Shown piece after piece: positions 1 through 16,315 of a DNA stretch of 64,000 bases (position 1 is the first letter of the stretch; each line of letters begins with the position of its first letter). Made by a program: the position numbers and the translations under genes. The notes beneath the pieces are model-generated. The model worked only from the letters and a program-made list of their open reading frames with translations. It was not told the DNA's origin and did not search any database. The stretch lies in assembly GCF_002752635.1 (NCBI RefSeq), contig NZ_AYTW01000061.1, positions 27,652 to 91,651 of the forward strand, written 5' to 3'. The stretch comes from Mesotoga sp. Brook.08.105.5.1 (GTDB lineage Bacteria > Thermotogota > Thermotogae > Petrotogales > Kosmotogaceae).

Positions 1-548
1 CCAGAGGAGACGAATACAAGTGAACCGCCGTGAACGTGTCGTAACGACCTTTAGTGTCATCAAAACCGGGAGGACCAACTATCCCGGGATAAGTCTGGAG
101 GAAACCTGCTTACTGTCCAGATGGTGACCGGCATACAGGTGGCGTGACCCTGGTACAGGCTTCGATTAGGAACTTGGGAACCTGGATCTGGATGTTAAGG
201 GAAAAGCCGCAAGTGGAAGACCCACGAGGGTGAAAGTACCGATGCCAGATTCAGGGGCGGAACAGTCCGTAGTAGTGATGAAGCTCCTGTAATGGGAGTG
301 GAGCGAAGGGACTGTGTTATCCAGTTTTGTAGGTTAGTCAACCAACTCTGTGCAGACAACCGAAAGGGAGGAACTGTGAACAGAGGGAAGGGAAGTGCTA
401 ACAGACAAAATGAGGTCGTATGACATCTCCTTTGTACACTGGACAATGGGGATATTCTATATGGCTGGATAATGGGAGCCGGATGAATCGAGAGGTTCAA
501 GTCCGGTTCTGAGAGAGCCTGGGGGTGAAATCCCCCCGGGCTACTCAC
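1..548 (+). mobile_element. Group II intron, 3' portion, lacking its reverse transcriptase gene
   Basis: The 3' half of a group II ribozyme is recognisable. Domain V spans 476-511: an 8-bp lower stem (GAGCCGGA with UCCGGUUC), the AGC catalytic triad at 477-479, an upper stem capped by a GAGA tetraloop, and a two-base AG bulge. Domain VI spans about 512-546, a GC-rich hairpin with an unpaired A at 543 as the likely branch point, and the intron ends in AC at 547-548. Upstream text is typical of domains I-III. Where the intron-encoded protein should start (GTG near 376) there are only about 15 codons, reading NRGKGSANRQNEVV, before a stop. Domain IV has therefore lost the reverse transcriptase/maturase, and splicing would need a maturase in trans. 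The 5' splice site lies before the window. Confidence 0.85.
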
Positions 549-576
549 CAAGATCCTTGGACCTACCCCAAGAGAG

Positions 577-3255: not shown

Positions 3256-3621
3256 TCAGTCGGGCGAGACTTTGAGACTTGAGATTAGCCTGTTGAGCAT
3301 TCTGTGAAGTCGATCAGCAGTTTCACGGAGTTCTTCATGAGTCTCTTGATTTATGTAACCGAGCATCTTTGACAATTCAAGCTGGGTTATGACCTCTCTG
3401 AGAGAGCCTTTGGAGAGAAAGAGGAATTGTGCATATTCCTTTTTGTGCTGTCTCCCTGAGCCTTCAGCAATATTGGAAGGAACGGATATTACGGCTCTCC
3501 TAAGTTGGGAAGATAGGCCAAATTTCTCATATTCAGGGAACGAAGAGACTGTCTGATAGACATCAAATGCAAAGGCCATGCTGAGTTTGTAGACGTCGAG
3601 TTTTTCGTAAGAATAGGTCAT
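3256..3621 (-). CDS. Four-helix bundle protein, 23S rRNA-IVP (S23) family, second copy
   Basis: This 121-residue paralogue of the gene at 585-965 has the same organisation: MTYSYEKLDVYKLSMAFAF, SSQLRRAVISVPSNIAEGSG at about residues 38-57, and FLFLSKGSLREVITQLELSK. The ATG at 3621 is preceded by GGAGGTGAGCTT, an excellent ribosome site, so the longer upstream frame is discarded. Together the two S23 genes bracket the replication pair, both on the opposite strand to it. Function is unknown; the family is helical and may form pentamers. Sequence divergence between the two copies suggests they are not a recent duplication. Confidence 0.85.
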   Translation of the reverse strand: MTYSYEKLDVYKLSMAFAFDVYQTVSSFPEYEKFGLSSQLRRAVISVPSNIAEGSGRQHKKEYAQFLFLSKGSLREVITQLELSKMLGYINQETHEELRETADRLHRMLNRLISSLKVSPD

Positions 3622-4620: not shown

Positions 4621-5200
4621 ATGCTTTCCGGAGAATAGCAAACAGTCAAAGGGTAACATGTTCGTTTTGCCATTGCATATTCACATAGCTGAACCGAAGC
4701 CGGGCGCCCGCCCGGCTACTTCAATTATCTATCATTGGGACAAACGTCTTCAGTTCAGAACGATCTCTTCTTGGTAAAGAAATTCGACAACAGTTTATGA
4801 AATGTATATCTGACATCGTTGGGATTTATTCCGTAAGTCGTAGGCAGGTTTTGGTTCTGCTGATGAATTCTCATGTGAACTGAGGCGAACTATGCCCGTC
4901 TGCTTAAACAACTTTCGATACTAAGAGAAAGTAGATCAACTGGCCCGGCTACAGATATTAACTTGCGAATATCTCGCAATAAGAAAGTGCTTTGTGCTTG
5001 TTGCAATCAATGGAACTTAGTGAATATTCAAGGTTTCTCGCGAAGAGAAAACCAGTTGCAGAGGAAATGTTGAAGTCCAACTAACCAATTATTCTACATC
5101 CAGAGATCAACTCAAGAGGATTACTTAAACCATCCCGAAAGCTCATGGAAATCATTTGATATCGCGAGCAATGCCTTATTAATTGACCCAAGATGGTTGT
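4621..5200. other. Intergenic stretch without a recognisable gene
   Basis: No frame here reads as a convincing protein on either strand. A strong hairpin sits at about 4697-4717; the rest is AT-richer than its surroundings with scattered stops. It could be eroded coding DNA, but no family is recognisable. Confidence 0.6.
4697..4717 (+). terminator. GC-rich hairpin after the TPR gene
   Basis: AGCCGGGCG pairs perfectly with CGCCCGGCT across a 2-3 base loop, followed by ACTTCAATTAT. The stem is strong but the U-tract is weak. It is best read as the terminator of the TPR gene. Confidence 0.5.
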
Positions 5201-5267: not shown

Positions 5268-5693
5268 ATGGAGAGAAAGATCGATGTCTTATCCGACGAA
5301 AGAATGCAGAGGGAATTTGACAAGTACGTAGGAAAGAATCCCTCCAGAAAGAAGGATCTGATAAAGAATAGGTTTTTGCTCACCGAGCTGCTGGAGAAGG
5401 CGGGGGAGAATTATGTGAAAACGGAACTTGCAAAACCGCGAAGATCTTCCCGCCTGGAGGTTTTCAGACGTACGGAGACCAGTTATTCAATATACTCTCT
5501 TCATCTTACAGAGACGAAGAGGAATGATCCAGAAAACGCAAGGATTCTTTTCTGCTTCTTCAATGATAAGAAGGTTATCGTTTATCTTGTCTTCTTTGAT
5601 GAGTCCGATGAAAAGTATGAGAAGGCGATCGAGAGACTGAAGTCGCGGATTTGTGAATGGACCGGTCGGGGATTCAATGTATGCAAGTTTTAG
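5268..5693 (+). CDS. RelE/HigB-like toxin, first gene of a TAC operon
   Basis: The 141-residue basic protein has a C-terminal half, ARILFCFFNDKKVIVYLVFF followed by DESDEKYEKAIERLKSR, which matches the beta-sheet plus terminal helix of RelE/HigB/Gp49-type ribosome-dependent mRNA interferases. The N-terminal 60 residues are helical and unassigned. The gene order toxin, then HTH antitoxin 16 bp later, then a SecB-like gene is that of toxin-antitoxin-chaperone operons such as M. tuberculosis HigB1-HigA1-Rv1957. The toxin call rests jointly on the fold pattern and this context. Likely action: cleavage of mRNA on the ribosome when the antitoxin is degraded. Confidence 0.65.
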   Translation: MERKIDVLSDERMQREFDKYVGKNPSRKKDLIKNRFLLTELLEKAGENYVKTELAKPRRSSRLEVFRRTETSYSIYSLHLTETKRNDPENARILFCFFNDKKVIVYLVFFDESDEKYEKAIERLKSRICEWTGRGFNVCKF

Positions 5694-7116: not shown

Positions 7117-7392
7117 TTAGAGCTGTGCTGCTTTTCCAAATCCTCTGCCGAGTCCCGGTCCCTTTTCGCCAGAGGCGCCGTGCCTGTAGCCTGTTCCGTC
7201 CTGGGCATTCTTCAGTTCTCTTACTCCGTCATTCGGGCAGTTGTCATTTATTCCGTCGCCGTCTGCATCCACAAAGTTCTCACAGGTTGTGGGATCCTGA
7301 ACTCTCTGCATCGCTTTCGTTCCGTAACCTACTGCCAATGACATTCCACCGATCAGAAGAACTGCAATCGTAATTAACATTATCTTTTTCAT
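7117..7392 (-). CDS. Secreted 91-residue peptide with DADGDGIND calcium-loop motif, copy 1
   Basis: The product has a signal peptide (MKKIMLITIAVLLIGGMSLAVG, with likely cleavage near residue 20-25). A short mature part follows with CENFVDADGDGINDNCPN at about residues 37-54 and a Gly-rich tail (GEKGPGLGRGFGKAAQL). The D-x-D-x-D-G-I-x-D pattern flanked by two cysteines resembles a calcium-binding EF-hand or thrombospondin type-3 loop. GGAGGTGTAAG precedes the ATG. Copies 2 and 3 at 8569 and 11163 are nearly identical. The protein is clearly expressed by design (promoter region, SD and terminator are all conserved), but its role is unknown; an exported calcium-binding or envelope peptide is plausible. 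Confidence 0.8.
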   Translation of the reverse strand: MKKIMLITIAVLLIGGMSLAVGYGTKAMQRVQDPTTCENFVDADGDGINDNCPNDGVRELKNAQDGTGYRHGASGEKGPGLGRGFGKAAQL

Positions 7393-7875
7393 CTCTTACA
7401 CCTCCATTTGATTTTTGGTACATTCTCAGTCTACGGCCAGTTTCTTAGAGCCCGCTTAACGGCCGCTTAGAGGTTGCTTAGAGAACGTGGTTGCGGATAG
7501 GGGTAGGGGGTCCGAAAGACCCAAAGATCAGTTGCAAGAAAAAAGTGAGAGGCGAGGCCGACTTCGTCGGGAAGTGATGCTGCTTCGCACGAAGCCTCTC
7601 AGGTCAACCGCCATCGGTCCACCGTCCTCCGAGGAAAACTCGTTCTTCGTTCCAGAGCGAGGACCTGTTATTCGTGAAGAACGGTTCTTCGTTCCGACGC
7701 TACGCGTCCAGGTTCTTGGTTCTTCGTCTAGGATTCCGTCATTCTCGTGAATTGTCATAAGAGAGAAAGTAGAGAGTATAGAATGAGGGTAGAGGGAGTA
7801 GCCAGTCGTCATTCCAAAATGATTCAGAATCCTGCTCCTAAAAATCGCAGTACGCTTAGGAGCAAGGACCCGCTG
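7393..7875. repeat. Upstream region and repeat block of peptide copy 1 (partial duplication unit)
   Basis: The leader (7393-7480) and the following 400 bp are repeated almost exactly at 8845-9327 and 11439-11932. They contain a structured piece at about 7546-7600, in which GAGAGGC pairs with GCCTCTC around a CCGACTTCGTCGG hairpin, then ACCGTC/TCCTCCGAGG elements and a GCTCCTAAAAATCGCAGTAC-type end. Open frames here mirror one another and lack real start sites, so this is repeat DNA rather than genes. Confidence 0.75.
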
Positions 7876-8568: not shown

Positions 8569-8844
8569 TTAGAGCTGTGCTGCTTTTCCGAATCCTCTGC
8601 CGAGTCCCGGTCCCTTTTCGCCAGAGGCGCCGTGCCTGTAGCCTGTTCCGTCCTGGGCGTTCTTCAGTTCTCTTACTCCGCCATTCGGGCAGTTGTCATT
8701 TATTCCGTCGCCGTCTGCATCCACAAAGTTCTCACAGGTTGTGGGATCCTGAACTCTCTGCATCGCTTTCGTTCCGTAACCTACTGCCAATGTCATTCCA
8801 CCGATCAGAAGAACTGCAATCGTAATTAACATTATCTTTTTCAT
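8569..8844 (-). CDS. Secreted 91-residue peptide with DADGDGIND motif, copy 2
   Basis: The product differs from copy 1 at two residues (SLAVG to TLAVG; CPNDGV to CPNGGV). Signal peptide, paired cysteines, D-x-D-x-D-G loop and Gly-rich tail are intact. The ribosome site GGAGGTG and upstream leader are also kept. The near absence of change in coding sequence, leader and terminator indicates either recent duplication or gene conversion. Function unknown. Confidence 0.8.
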   Translation of the reverse strand: MKKIMLITIAVLLIGGMTLAVGYGTKAMQRVQDPTTCENFVDADGDGINDNCPNGGVRELKNAQDGTGYRHGASGEKGPGLGRGFGKAAQL

Positions 8845-9327
8845 CTCTTACACCTCCATTTGATTTTTGGTACATTCTCAGTCTACGGCCAGTTTCTTAG
8901 AGCCCGCTTAACGGCCGCTTAGAGGTTGCTTAGAGAACGTGGTTGCGGATAGGGGTAGGGGGTCCGAAAGACCCAAAGATCAGTTGCAAGAAAAAAGTGA
9001 GAGGCGAGGCCGACTTCGTCGGGAAGTGATGCTGCTTCGCACGAAGCCTCTCAGGTCAACCGTCAACGGTCCACCGTCCTCCGAGGAAAACTCGTTCTTC
9101 GTTCCAGAGCGAGGACCTGTTATTCGTGAAGAACGGTTCTTCGTTCCGACGCTACGCGTCCAGGTTCATGGTTCTTCGTCTAGGATTCCGTCATTCTCGT
9201 GTATTGTCATAAGAGAGAAAGTAGAGAGTATAGAATGAGGGTAGAGGGAGTAGCCAGTCGTCATTCCAAAATGATTCAGAATTCTGCTCCTAAAAATCGC
9301 AGTACGCTTAGGAGCAAGGACCCGCTG

Positions 9328-10160
9328 AAGGCTGTACGCTGATGATCAGTTGCAGGTTCTCAGTTCCGAGTTGCAAGCTAAAGACCCGAAAGCAAAAACG
9401 TCACAGTCGTCATCCGAAATTGATTCAAAATCTCGTTCCTAGGAAGCGTACAGCTGTTCTTAGATGCGAGATCCCGTGCAGACCCCCCAAACAGGAGCAT
9501 TTTGGGGCAGGCTCTACGGGATGACAAAGTAAGGGATTGACATAAGGAGTACTCGGGATGACGGCCTTAGGTTATTTGGAGAACAACGCATCCCGTCATG
9601 CTGAACTTGTTTCAAAATACTGCTCTCAAGGTTTTTGGAACCTGCAACCTCGGTACTTCAAGACCAGATCCCGTGCAGACCCATCACGGGAAGACAGTCC
9701 TTCACGTCATCCTGAAGTGCTCCTGTTCAGGATCTGGGCTTGGGTCTGAGCGAAGGACGGGTCCATGATCTGGGACGAGTCACGAAGGACGGTTCTCCAC
9801 AGCGATCAGCGGGTTCCCCGCTTTTAAGCGCACAGCGGTTCTTACATTCGAGATCCCGATCAGTTTCATATCGGGATGACAAAGTAAGGGATTGACATAA
9901 GGAGTACTCGGGATGCAGGCCTTAGGTTATTTGGAGAACATCGCATCCCGTCATGCTGAACTTGTTCGAAAATACTGCTCTCAAGGTTTGTCGAACCTGC
10001 AACCTCGGTACTTCAAGACCAGATCCCGTGCAGAAGCATCACGGGATGACCCTGAACAGGAGCATTTCAGGGCAGGCTCATTGGGGCAGGCTTTCTGGGC
10101 AGGCTTACGGGTGATGAAGTAAGGAGTTTGTACGAGTGACATGGGGTGATAGTCTTCTTT
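9328..10160. repeat. Dispersed intergenic repeats (CATCCCGTCATGCTGAACTTG family) without genes
   Basis: Two long copies lie at about 9558-9700 and 9913-10055; a third is at 12110-12245. Each has ATTTGGAGAACA, then CATCCCGTCATGCTGAACTTG, CTGCAACCTCGGTACTTCAA and a closing CATCACGGGATGAC that pairs back with ATCCCGT. Other pieces are GGGATTGACATAAGGAGTAC (9533, 9889) and CAGCGATCAGCGGGTT (9797). Frames reading through this are repeat shadows. Terminal complementarity (CATCCCGT against ACGGGATG) suggests folded, REP/MITE-like units. Confidence 0.7.
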
Positions 10161-11438: not shown

Positions 11439-11932
11439 CTCTTACACCTCCATATGATTTTTGGTATATTCTCAGTCTACGGCCCGTTTCTTAGAGCCCG
11501 CTTAACAAACGCTTAGAGATTGCTTAGAGATTTGAAGAGCCGTGGCTGCGGGTAGAGCAGATTGGGGGTGGAAAGAGCCAAAGATCAGTGGCAAGAAAAA
11601 AGTGAGAGGCGAGGCCGACTTTGTCGGGAAGTGATGCTGCTTCGCACGAAGCCTCTCAGGTCAACCGTCAACGGTCCACCGTTCTCCGAGGAAAACTCGT
11701 TCTTCGTTCCAGAGCGAGGACCTGTTATTCGTGAAGAACGGTTCTTCGTTCCGACGCTACGCGTCCAGGTTCTAGGTTCTTCGTCTAGGATTCCGTCATT
11801 CTCGTGTATTGTCACAAGAGAGAAAGCAGAGAGTATAGAATGAGGGTAGAAGGAGTAGCCAGTCGTCATTCCAAAATGATTCAGAATCCTGCTCCTAAAA
11901 AACGCAGTACGCTTAGGAGCAAGGACCCGCTG

Positions 11933-12406
11933 GGAAGATCAGAGAGCCGCTGAAGGCTGCGCGCTGATGAAAACCACGTTGACCGTCATCGGTCCACCGT
12001 CCTCCGAGGAAAACTCGTTCTTCGTTCCAGAGCGAGGACCTGTTCTTCGTTCTTGGTTAAGCCAAGAAGAAGATCGAAAACTAGATTCAGGATCCGACTC
12101 TGAAATGATTGCCTTAGGTTATTTGGAGAACATCGCATCCCGTCATGGTGAACTTGTTTCAAAATACTGCTCACAAGGTTTTTCGAACCTGCAACCTCGG
12201 TACTTCAAGACCAGATCCCGTGCAGACCCATCACGGGATGACGGTGTGGGGATATTACGGCATGATACTGAACAGAGCCCCCAAACAGGAGCCCTGAACA
12301 GGAAATTTTCAGGGCAGGCTTTCTGGGCAGGCACCACGGGATGCCCGCAGAGTAAATCGTTTTTTCACCACACCCGAGACCCTAGACTCCAGACCCTAAT
12401 CTAAGC
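11933..12406. repeat. Dispersed repeat mosaic, no gene
   Basis: Contains a second TCGGTCCACCGTCCTCCGAG/GTTCTTCG element (11988-12050) and the third copy of the CATCCCGTCATGCTGAACTTG family (12110-12245). The open frames crossing it repeat those seen at 9.5-10 kb and are not genes. Confidence 0.65.
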
Positions 12407-12454
12407 GCGTCATTCTGAGATGATCCTGCTCAGAATCTCGCTCTTCTTGTGAGC
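12407..12454. repeat. Dispersed repeat, GCGTCATTCTGAGATGATCC type, second copy
   Basis: Identical over about 45 bases to 10167-10214. Confidence 0.75.
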
Positions 12455-12548
12455 GAGCGACCGTCTCTATCAGCTCTTTATCGATGCTTCTTATTGGTCT
12501 CGCAAAGCCGAAACTGGTCTGTGTCAACAAACAGGCTCAAAATCGCCT

Positions 12549-12648
12549 CCTGCCGAAGGCAGCCTTGCGTCCCCGGATGCTTTCCCGGGCATTGCGACCT
12601 GGCGAAGCCAGCCTTGCGTCCGCCGATGTTCTTTCGGCGCTTGCGTCT
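12549..12648. repeat. Tandem array of four covarying hairpins with a conserved CTTGCGTC linker
   Basis: Four hairpins follow each other: CTGCC-GAA-GGCAG (12550-12562), CCCGG-loop-CCGGG (about 12572-12588), CTGGC-GAA-GCCAG (12599-12611) and CGCCGA-loop-TCGGCG (12621-12639). Each is followed by a TTGCGTC or TTGCGAC linker. Hairpins 1 and 3 share the GAA loop, and 2 and 4 share a GATG-(C/T)T(C)TTC-like loop, so the array is two copies of a 49-bp dimer. Stem bases differ between copies yet stay paired, which indicates selection on structure. Confidence 0.7.
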
Positions 12649-12818
12649 AATTTCAGCAGTGACTGAGACTTTTCACCTGCCTTCTCGTGAGCGCAGCGAA
12701 CGTCTCTATCAGCTCTTTCTCGAATGATCTTTTCGGAGGACGGGTCCTGGCTCTTGGACAGCCGACGGAGAACCGTATTTCACAGCACTTGGCGCTCAAG
12801 TGAAGATTAAGGTACCAG
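12649..12818. other. Repeat remnants before the tRNA terminator
   Basis: Fragments of GTGAGCGCAGCGA / GTCTCTATCAGCTCTTT, seen also at 12460, and a GACGGGTCCTGG piece. No gene recognised. Confidence 0.5.
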
Positions 12819-12850
12819 CATTAAAAAACGAAAGATCTCCCTATCGGGAG
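12819..12850 (-). terminator. Terminator of tRNA-Glu
   Basis: On the minus strand GTCTCCC-GATA-GGGAGATC is followed by TTTCGTTTTTT. A textbook intrinsic terminator 40 bases after the tRNA. Confidence 0.85.
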
Positions 12851-12891
12851 ACCCTTCAACGTACTTTAGGTATCACTTGAGGAACTTAGGG

Positions 12892-12966
12892 TGGCAGCCC
12901 CACGGGGAATCGAACCCCGACCTTCGGACTGAGAATCCGGTGGACTAGCCGTTATCCTATGGGGCC
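12892..12966 (-). tRNA. tRNA-Glu (anticodon CTC)
   Basis: The minus strand folds as a 75-base cloverleaf: acceptor GGCCCCA with TGGGGCT (G1-U72), D arm GGATAACGGCTAGTCC, anticodon loop TTCTCAG giving CTC, T arm GGGGTTCGATTCCCC, discriminator G73 and encoded CCA. The C27-A43 position of the anticodon stem is mismatched, the other four pairs are good. It reads GAG codons. Confidence 0.9.
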
Positions 12967-12977
12967 GAACAGAAATA

Positions 12978-13006
12978 ATATTATCATGGTCTCCGGCTTT
13001 TGTAAA
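12978..13006 (-). promoter_or_regulatory. Promoter of tRNA-Glu
   Basis: On the minus strand TTTACA is followed after 17 bases by TAATAT, with the tRNA starting about 12 bases later. Confidence 0.6.
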
Positions 13007-13029
13007 CACCCCTGCTTAAGAGATATAAT
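13000..13029 (+). promoter_or_regulatory. Promoter of the alpha/beta hydrolase gene
   Basis: TTGTAA, an 18-base spacer and a consensus TATAAT at 13024-13029 lie just before the GAGGAGGTG ribosome site at 13036-13044. It is back to back with the tRNA promoter. Confidence 0.6.
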
Positions 13030-13049
13030 CATTTTGAGGAGGTGTTTCG

Positions 13050-13841
13050 GTGTTTATCAGACGGTGGTTTTCTCCAGGGGCTAAGGCGAACGTTGTGTTA
13101 TGTCATGGAATAGGTGAGCATAGCGGAAGATATGATGGTTTTGCTTCTTATCTAAGCGAAAAGGGATTTGGTGTCTTTGCGACGGACTTTGCCGGCCACG
13201 GAATGCAGGCCGGAACACGCGGCTTCATAAAGTCTTTTACAGATTTCATTTCGGCGGTCAGGCAGCTTACTGAAGGAGTGAAAAGGATCCAGCCGGATCT
13301 CCCGGTCTTTCTTTTTGGCCATAGTATGGGAGGGCTTATTGCTACCAGGGTTGCCGAGGAGTATCCAAATTCTTACAGAGCTCTGGCTATAAGCGCACCC
13401 CATCTCTTTTCAGCGAAGGACTCCGTGAAGAAGTTGCTGCCGTTGATTTCGGTTGTCAGAAGAGTCGCGCCGAAAACGACGTTCAGTAGTTCGTCGCGTT
13501 TTACTCCATCGGATCTTTCGCATAATCAAAGGGCCGTGAAGAGATATGTAGATGATCCGTATGTTCATGACAGGGTATCGCCGAATCTCTTCTTTGGGCT
13601 TGAAGATAGTATCGATCTGGCAATGGCCAATGCGAACAAAATCAAAATCCCTACTCTGATAGTATATGGTTCTGCAGACAGGGTTGTCGATCCCGCTGGG
13701 GCACAGGAGCTCTACAAGAAGATAGAGTCAGAGAAGAGAATAATAGAGATAGCCGGTGGAAAGCACGAGATGTTTGCAGATGAAGAGAGGAAGCCTCAGT
13801 TCTTCGAGGCAATCTCATCGTTCTTCTCAGAGCATATCTGA
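13050..13841 (+). CDS. Alpha/beta hydrolase, monoacylglycerol lipase-like
   Basis: The 263-residue enzyme has the serine-hydrolase elbow GHSMGG (about residue 95), the oxyanion region LCHGIGEHSGRY near residue 20, and a late catalytic Asp (VYGSADRVVDP) and His (IAGGKHEMFADE). This matches the hydrolase_4 / monoacylglycerol lipase (lysophospholipase) group acting on lipid esters in the cytosol. It starts at GTG 13050, 5 bases after GAGGAGGTG. There is no signal peptide. It is convergent with ribF and overlaps its end by 15 bases. The precise substrate is not readable from sequence. Confidence 0.85.
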   Translation: MFIRRWFSPGAKANVVLCHGIGEHSGRYDGFASYLSEKGFGVFATDFAGHGMQAGTRGFIKSFTDFISAVRQLTEGVKRIQPDLPVFLFGHSMGGLIATRVAEEYPNSYRALAISAPHLFSAKDSVKKLLPLISVVRRVAPKTTFSSSSRFTPSDLSHNQRAVKRYVDDPYVHDRVSPNLFFGLEDSIDLAMANANKIKIPTLIVYGSADRVVDPAGAQELYKKIESEKRIIEIAGGKHEMFADEERKPQFFEAISSFFSEHI

Positions 13842-16000: not shown

Positions 16001-16315
16001 AGCTCTCACCTCCTTGATAATTATAACCTAGAAAGCGAGTTCGGGAAGATGCCGGATTGAAATGAAAGCATTGCTAAGTTCCCCAGGGACGGAGGCCCGG
16101 AGGATCGTCCGGGGAAGTGATGCTCGCTGCACGACGAAGTAAGGCCGACTTCGACAGGAGGAGAGGCCGACACGTCTGGAAGCGTATGACAGTTCACCGT
16201 CAATGGGTCTCCGTTTCCGAGTGGACCGTGAATGTAACTACAAGTTTTGAGGTTTAACCTTGTCGATTCGTAAAGAAGTTATAATCTTTATTGACTAATA
16301 ATTAGGAGTGGTTCC
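16001..16315. repeat. Intergenic repeat DNA and amidase promoter
   Basis: About 16077-16190 is a diverged member of the structured repeat seen at 7546, 8998 and 11602 (GGGAAGTGATGCT, GCACGA, GGCCGACTTCG). It is followed by an ACCGTCAATGGGTCTCCG element. A -10 box TATAAT at 16280-16285 lies 35 bases before the amidase start, with no clear -35. Confidence 0.55.

Follow-up and report, generated by a model that had tools for sequence, protein, structure and literature searches.

Short palindromic repeats are common in bacteria and are mostly known as families defined by a consensus sequence. BIME and REPIN mosaics consist largely of inverted REP pairs and are linked to RAYTs. As described in enterobacteria and Pseudomonas, in the passages drawn on here, these mosaics resemble the arrays reported below in being built of intergenic palindromes (PMC3116915). 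The arrays differ from them in running one way, in having interchangeable stems and in not tracking Y1 transposases. A second family, the CGTC-3 REPs, was reported by Di Nocera et al. (2013, PMC3733652) from Mesotoga prima and Kosmotoga olearia. According to the passages of that report considered here, these elements carry an unpaired CGTC tag before a stem of 8-9 bp with an AT start, followed by a short tail; they occur mostly as head-to-head dimers, with clusters rare and head-to-tail arrangements negligible, and no associated transposase is reported. In M. prima, RepRanger counts 1,814 putative REPs, and it notes that Thermotogota REP motifs resemble no others (PMC12306157). The array hairpins described below may be among these M. 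prima REPs, although arrays, linkers and a stem vocabulary are not described in the passages of the RepRanger account used here.

Two further systems offer structural parallels. DNA mini-hairpins with G-C pairs are extra-stable when their loop is of the GNA or GNNA type (PMC4686876), and many short units of the arrays share these loops and their C-G closing pair; the relevant passages concern synthetic DNA and contain no repeats of the array kind. Mitochondrial hairpin and double-hairpin elements (PMC2800124; those of Allomyces through its text) place small hairpins in tandem between genes, singly, in pairs or in larger numbers, with rapid turnover between relatives and complementary substitutions between element types, but they belong to organelle DNA and a fixed 9-nt linker is absent from the passages at hand. 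This likeness is to be read as analogy, not kinship. To our knowledge, no sequence is common to the mitochondrial elements and the Mesotoga arrays.

The locus analysed here lies in a 64,000-bp stretch of Mesotoga DNA (the window), and the arrays to which it belongs differ from the consensus-sequence families in what they conserve: structure, loop class and spacer length, with stems that form a small exchangeable vocabulary and units that differ as wholes between sister species. A literature search, which was not exhaustive and had the 2012 M. prima genome paper outside its scope, returned no description of such arrays.

The window array and its surroundings

Four hairpins can be read directly from the sequence of an intergenic stretch at 12550-12639 (+), located between a repeat-rich stretch and a minus-strand tRNA-Glu gene. 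Mechanical repeat finding resolves two 49-nt copies (12542-12590 and 12591-12639) with 73% identity, each containing a GAA-loop hairpin (12550-12562 and 12599-12611) and a longer-loop hairpin (12572-12589 and 12621-12639), in agreement with the original prediction of tandem hairpins in 49-bp dimers. On the plus strand, the 5' boundary is a degenerate linker, AATCGCCTC (12541-12549), which is a variant of the counted linker CCTCGCCTC. It is followed by unit 1, the mini-hairpin CTGCC-GAA-GGCAG (12550-12562), recognised from the sequence, repeat finding, the DNA fold and the stem vocabulary, and by the linker CCTTGCGTC (12563-12571), recognised, like the later internal linkers, from the sequence and the linker counts. 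Unit 2 is an 18-nt long-loop hairpin with arms CCCGG and CCGGG (12572-12589; sequence and DNA fold), separated by the linker CATTGCGAC (12590-12598) from unit 3, the mini-hairpin CTGGC-GAA-GCCAG (12599-12611; sequence, repeat finding and DNA fold). A second occurrence of CCTTGCGTC (12612-12620) leads to unit 4, a 19-nt long-loop hairpin with arms CGCCGA and TCGGCG (12621-12639; sequence and DNA fold), and the array ends with the terminal linker CTTGCGTC (12640-12647), which in the window is one base under 9 nt; the copies L009 and L010 have it complete. The paired change of stem bases from CTGCC/GGCAG to CTGGC/GCCAG is present as had been claimed. The joining role given to the linkers also holds; their length, put at 7 nt, is 9 nt in unit terms.

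The array is not alone in the window. About 110 bases away, at 12408-12440 (+), a pattern match identifies a larger CGTC-tagged REP of the family described in PMC3733652, with a CGTC tag, the stem ATTCTGAG, the loop ATGATCCTG, the second arm CTCAGAAT and a CTCG tail, whose tag and loop type are those of the long-loop units. A second, decayed array is found upstream of rbfA (16096-16144, minus strand), at a site whose orthologs in other species carry other units, and a single linker-hairpin-linker unit is located at 11606-11636 (-), with similar singles at ~7549-7579 and ~9001-9031 (-). The region from 8.9 to 12.9 kb has largely the appearance of a repeat mosaic. Two near-alike ORFs at 8939-9238 and 11562-11843, probably spurious, mark a duplicated intergenic block, and a group II intron match above the Rfam gathering score occurs at 474-549 (+).

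Two conventional assignments were considered for the array and rejected. Coding sequence is incompatible with unit periods of 22, 27 and 28 bp, which keep no frame. Transcription terminators do not account for it either: the sole terminator-like site in 12400-13050 lies next to the tRNA on the minus strand, outside the array.

Folded by itself with RNA parameters, the window array did not differ significantly from shuffles (z of -0.38 and -0.45) and the minimum-energy fold of the plus strand is long-range and lacks the four hairpins; considered as local hairpins on the minus strand, the four have mean pair probabilities of 0.87-0.98, above those of the plus strand. With DNA parameters, the comparison with shuffles was again not significant (z of -1.12 and -1.11) and the plus-strand minimum-energy structure contains all four hairpins together with two short linker helices; at 37 C these parameters gave the two GAA units a preference for the plus strand and showed almost no strand difference for the two long-loop units. 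The standard folding parameters gave no clear answer on DNA versus RNA for the window array. The significance of the window hairpins comes from their copies and from the covariation of their arms, rather than from single-sequence folding.

A family of hairpin-linker units, probably related to CGTC-tagged REPs

A 131-bp query from the window array returned 64 BLAST matches at E <= 0.001 in its own genome. In 34 fetched stretches and the window, arrays carry differing stems on common linkers, and one cluster has 14 units. Each unit comprises a hairpin and a 9-nt linker (C-N-N-N-R-C-K-W-C). The hairpin of short units has 13 nt (sometimes 14) and mostly a GNA or GNNA loop, and that of long units has 18 or 19 nt and an RTGnTCyT-like loop. 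For counting, units were picked by the linker pattern on both sides (coded C[ACGT][ACT][ACT][AG]C[CGT][AT]C), ignoring pairing, in 36 merged pieces of four genomes and 19 further loci, with intervals of 11-24 nt. The search identified 386 linker-bounded intervals against 23 per mononucleotide-shuffled set, and none of the shuffled intervals had perfect arms. Among the 314 intervals of 13, 18 or 19 nt, 254 presented perfect 5-bp arms and 299 at least four of five pairs, figures that are inflated by near-identical copies. When only distinct units are counted, perfect 5-bp arms occur in 12 of 26 (13 nt), 45 of 72 (18 nt) and 31 of 42 (19 nt), compared to means of 2.1, 11.6 and 10.1 when right arms were permuted and to maxima of 7, 23 and 20 over 2000 permutations.

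The stem vocabulary is small, with 13 different 5-nt arms among 159 perfect units in the fetched pieces of the window's own genome, and neighbouring perfect units within 40 bp had the same orientation in 140 cases and opposite orientation in none. A CRISPR array, with near-identical repeats and unique spacers, was discarded as a description of the arrays given their 9-nt linkers and this recurrent vocabulary.

Covariation was assessed on two alignments, one of 40 long-loop units chosen from 93 distinct ones of 18 nt and one of 30 GAA units chosen from 41, both hand-picked after a filter of at least four of five pairs, so that the 95% of paired positions is partly built in. The covariation score was 0.595 for the long-loop units (0.133 shuffled) and 0.591 for the GAA units (0.200 shuffled), falling to 0.12 or less when the alignments were slid. 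Cells with double changes numbered 54 against 18 shuffled in the long-loop units and 34 against 11 in the GAA units; in both alignments, neither the count of pairs showing a double change nor that of pair types rose above the shuffles. The stems are near-invariant at their outer C-G pair and at the closing pair, and variable and covarying at pairs 2-4, with pairs 2 and 4 of the long-loop units showing all four Watson-Crick types. These results uphold compensatory changes associated with structure at the level of RNA or single-stranded DNA. They do not uphold the reading of covariation as proof of selection, because template-switch correction of imperfect palindromes would give the same pattern.

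The covariance model of the long-loop unit matched 8 of 103 Thermotogota genomes, corresponding to 7 of the 10 Mesotoga genomes and one genome of a sister genus, and the null of no further covarying copies hence fails. BLAST searches with the window array matched 9 of 41 genomes, its own included; the ninth, G007, had one weak match and none with the covariance model. A pattern scan of a collection of 84,980 species, from which records near the window were possibly left out, detected six stretches, of which four are contigs of Mesotoga sp. WOFB36, one is a 3183-bp Kosmotogaceae contig and one is an Acidimicrobiales contig that was taken for a chance match. A collection of viral contigs contained no match to the pattern. 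The hairpin-array observation is confirmed, and was understated in its first form. We consider it fairly likely that the window locus is one array of a modular palindromic-repeat family, so far found in Mesotoga and one relative, a judgement made jointly with the REP kinship and the single-stranded DNA turnover discussed below.

Nor does the array stand without a relative: the long-loop units share their loop type, and about half of them also the tag, with Mesotoga CGTC-tagged REPs. Elements fitting the CGTC-3 REP description occur in the Mesotoga genomes analysed, and strict-pattern full-size REPs were detected on both strands in 8 of the 10, including the array-free G006 (18) and G007 (86). 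The strict pattern had no match in G003, which lacks arrays, or in G008, which has them. The first eight positions of the 9-nt REP loops lie within two mismatches of RTGNTCCT in 51 of 54 cases, and so do 36 of 47 distinct loops of long array units, compared to ~2 of 47 when their letters were shuffled and to 27 of 122 untagged hairpins having the same stem start; the likeness between array and REP loops had been spotted by eye ahead of this counting. The families CGTC-1 to CGTC-4 are defined by an unpaired CGTC motif, or its variants TGTC and CCTC, at one end. When this tag was looked for, the last four linker bases before the 314 units were CGTC in 151, CTTC in 100, CGAC in 51, CCTC in 9 and CCAC or CTAC in 3.

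In addition to this loop, shared by the long-loop units, and to the tag preceding about half of the array units, the arrays and the CGTC-3 REPs (as far as the cited passages of PMC3733652 describe them) have in common a short palindrome, complementary stem variants, presence in the same genomes and the lack of a reported transposase. They differ in other respects. The published stems have 8-9 bp with A-T at positions 1 and 2, whereas array stems have 5-6 bp and nearly all start with C-G; head-to-head dimers predominate among the REPs, whereas array units are packed head to tail only, on a fixed 9-nt linker and with GNA triloops mixed in. Since the array units break the published rules for REPs in the length and the start of the stem and in geometry, we refer to them as REP-related and not as REPs. 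Judging by sequence, the long-loop units are probably miniature relatives of CGTC-tagged REPs, with 5-6 bp stems, head-to-tail arrangement and GNA mini-hairpins interspersed. This putative kinship covers the long-loop units; the GNA units have no REP loop and may fall outside it.

Proposed whole-unit turnover and competing explanations

Six arrays of the window's own genome have a common left flank and, at least in part, a common right flank. Two of them, L009 and L010, differ from the window array by small changes only. The others present gaps relative to it of 49 bp (27+22) and 23 bp in L021, of 27 and 23 bp, together with a 6-bp short-to-long swap, in L039, and of 23 bp, split 14+9 by the aligner, in L013, and in all three cases the gaps correspond to whole hairpin-linker units. 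Orthologous sites carry different hairpins in different genomes. At the site upstream of rbfA, G000, G001, G002 and G004 retain the gene-proximal end of the array with differing hairpins, G002 and G004 having ~91% identity over the aligned block, and no array was recognised at that site in G003, G006 and G007. At another site, G001 and G009 share the flank and the terminal unit and differ in the remaining units, and at a third site an array is present in G002 and absent from G004.

The explanation that fits best, and which we regard as moderately probable, is that of modular REP-related hairpin arrays that turn over whole via single-stranded DNA. The hairpins would form where DNA becomes single-stranded in the course of replication or repair. 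Whole units would be deleted, duplicated or imported when the polymerase slips or switches template from one short repeated linker to another, a shuffling mechanism that is inferred. Units with unpaired arms would be lost or corrected, and stems would in this manner stay complementary while their sequence drifts. Host function is not required, and the arrays may be neutral or selfish. It is a long shot, in our estimate, that they amount to a hairpin-cassette system, in which single hairpin-linker units are gained, exchanged and lost as single-stranded DNA, with in-place turnover akin to that of CRISPR arrays or integrons, an alphabet of structures (stable GNA and RTGnTCyT mini-hairpins) instead of sequences, and CRISPR repeats, themselves hairpins, among the places invaded. 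The arrays provide a natural experiment on the copying, correction and shuffling of hairpin DNA in the chromosome of a bacterium, and a means to test if the stability of single-strand hairpins is enough by itself to drive a family of repeats.

Loops and mismatches bear on the choice between DNA and RNA. Among 34 distinct linker-adjacent perfect-stem triloop hairpins, 17 have GNA loops (GAA 7, GCA 4, GGA 4 and GTA 2); AAA occurs on 3 stems, and each of the remaining 14 triloops is seen once, in several cases on a stem that is not part of the vocabulary, with 6 occurrences in the shuffled control. The CTCGC stem carries the tetraloops GCCA, GCAA, GCTA, GTCA and GCGA, all five GNNA and three of them not GNRA; distinct tetraloops overall number 12, about equal to the 11 occurrences of the control, and only those on the CTCGC stem recur. 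Distinct units with at most one mismatch include 16 with G.T and 20 with A.C, and these similar counts speak for DNA, because RNA made from one strand should favour one class. Around 67 arrays, upstream genes are co-oriented in 32 cases and opposite in 30, and downstream genes in 36 and 30, a count based on crude ORF calls that includes CRISPR-embedded arrays. At the window locus, an Rfam search gave no match, either at the gathering threshold or with the E-value limit relaxed to 1. The GNA and GNNA loops, the mismatch counts, the random gene orientation and the Rfam result favour single-stranded DNA over RNA, in a suggestive manner only.

ANTAR target RNAs consist of paired hairpins with hexaloops bearing A1 and G4. 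This type was rejected on its loop: read on the complementary strand, position 4 varies and is G in only 12 of 47 distinct loops. More generally, transcribed arrays whose tandem hairpins are bound by a protein or make transcripts more stable (in the manner of Rsm, ANTAR or 3'-end RNAs) could explain the strong covariation, the tandem hairpins on constant-length linkers and the RNA pair probabilities obtained on the minus strand, and many REPs of other genomes are believed to work at the RNA level (PMC3733652, in the passages used). We deem such a structural RNA rather unlikely in view of the Rfam result, the gene orientations and the failure of G.T to exceed A.C, and also because no promoter-like site was detected between 12400 and the tRNA (scanned stretch 12400-13050) and the tRNA's terminator-like site stands between the tRNA gene and the array. 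A somewhat better, if still low, chance may be granted to neutral palindromes, in which template switching inside a hairpin copies arm mutations to the other arm and structure is unselected. Arms that are mostly perfect with free inner pairs, similar numbers of G.T and A.C intermediates and whole-unit gaps, as slippage between short repeats would give, all agree with it; the near-fixed outer pair, closing pair and loop class do not, as pure correction would lead to drift at all pairs. Correction together with selection for hairpin stability is possible. The non-significant folding of the single sequence is what a chance local duplication of a GC-rich stretch would give, but the many dispersed copies with covarying stems rule this candidate out, and we assign it virtually no weight.

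Movement of the units as non-autonomous elements by a hairpin-recognising transposase of the Y1/RAYT type, as proposed for GTAG REPs, would account for dispersed copies and for those that look inserted into CRISPR repeats and have a 16-bp direct duplication, and Y1 transposases (Y1_Tnp) do occur in the genus, having been detected in 7 of 21 genomes tested. Nonetheless, the array-rich G001 and G002 (the latter a 420-contig draft) had no Y1_Tnp match, and Y1 therefore seems dispensable for keeping arrays; conversely, G006 and G007 have Y1 and lack a covariance-model match, and CGTC REPs are reported without a dedicated transposase in the cited passages of PMC3733652. We consider this explanation quite improbable. 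Membership in the GTAG REP/RAYT system itself was rejected: the tetramers preceding the 314 units never include GTAG, and G001 and G002 yielded no Y1_Tnp match.

Copies within CRISPR arrays and strand clustering

Hairpin-bearing elements of ~285 bp interrupt CRISPR repeats in G000, G001 and G009 (repeat GTTTCCATACCACTATGGTTCTCACGCAAC or close variants), and are mostly flanked on both sides by CATACCACTATGGTTC, the 16-bp direct duplication. The interrupted CRISPR arrays are L081 (G000:C59, from ~15380), L086 and L087 (G001) and L088 (G009), with left/right junction counts of 4/4, 2/2, 6/7 and 3/2, respectively. The four spacers that follow the element copies in L081 all differ, and all four stretches have their copies in the half of the array with the lower coordinates. 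A single mobile element was rejected as an explanation, the CRISPR element being itself a mosaic with parts found elsewhere; four loci carrying partial copies of it lack the CRISPR core. Either insertion with target duplication or recombination could have produced the CRISPR-embedded copies, which raise the question of how CRISPR arrays get invaded. In L086, as well as in L089 and at 937-1047 of L098 (G002), a second array style is observed, with GAA hairpins spaced by ACTGGC and not by 9-nt linkers.

The strands of the arrays are regionally clustered in G001:C1, with 2 plus and 11 minus in 0.88-1.34 Mb and 22 plus and 4 minus elsewhere (permutation p ~0.002; 39 loci, with matches within 3 kb merged and second copies of two duplications dropped). 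The sampled GC skew of G001 is too weak to place replichores, and the strand pattern misfits an origin at dnaA; this clustering lies outside what the model of whole-unit turnover via single-stranded DNA accounts for. Covariance-model matches at 1822233-1846527 of G001:C1 recur at 1898536-1922830, shifted by exactly 76,303 bp, and this shift points to a large duplication or to an artefact of the assembly; matches near 2.42 and 2.44 Mb in G001 recur at ~21.7 kb.

A further type of tandem occurs near hairpin arrays, with ACCCG mostly every 14 bases and variable bases in between. These tandems form runs of 6 to 10 with one 19-base step in each, all on the minus strand, and are located at 3400-3493, 4867-4946, 5526-5605 and 10053-10132 (-) of L089 in G001, and at 478-613, 7207-7299 and 8769-8848 (-) of L092 in G009.
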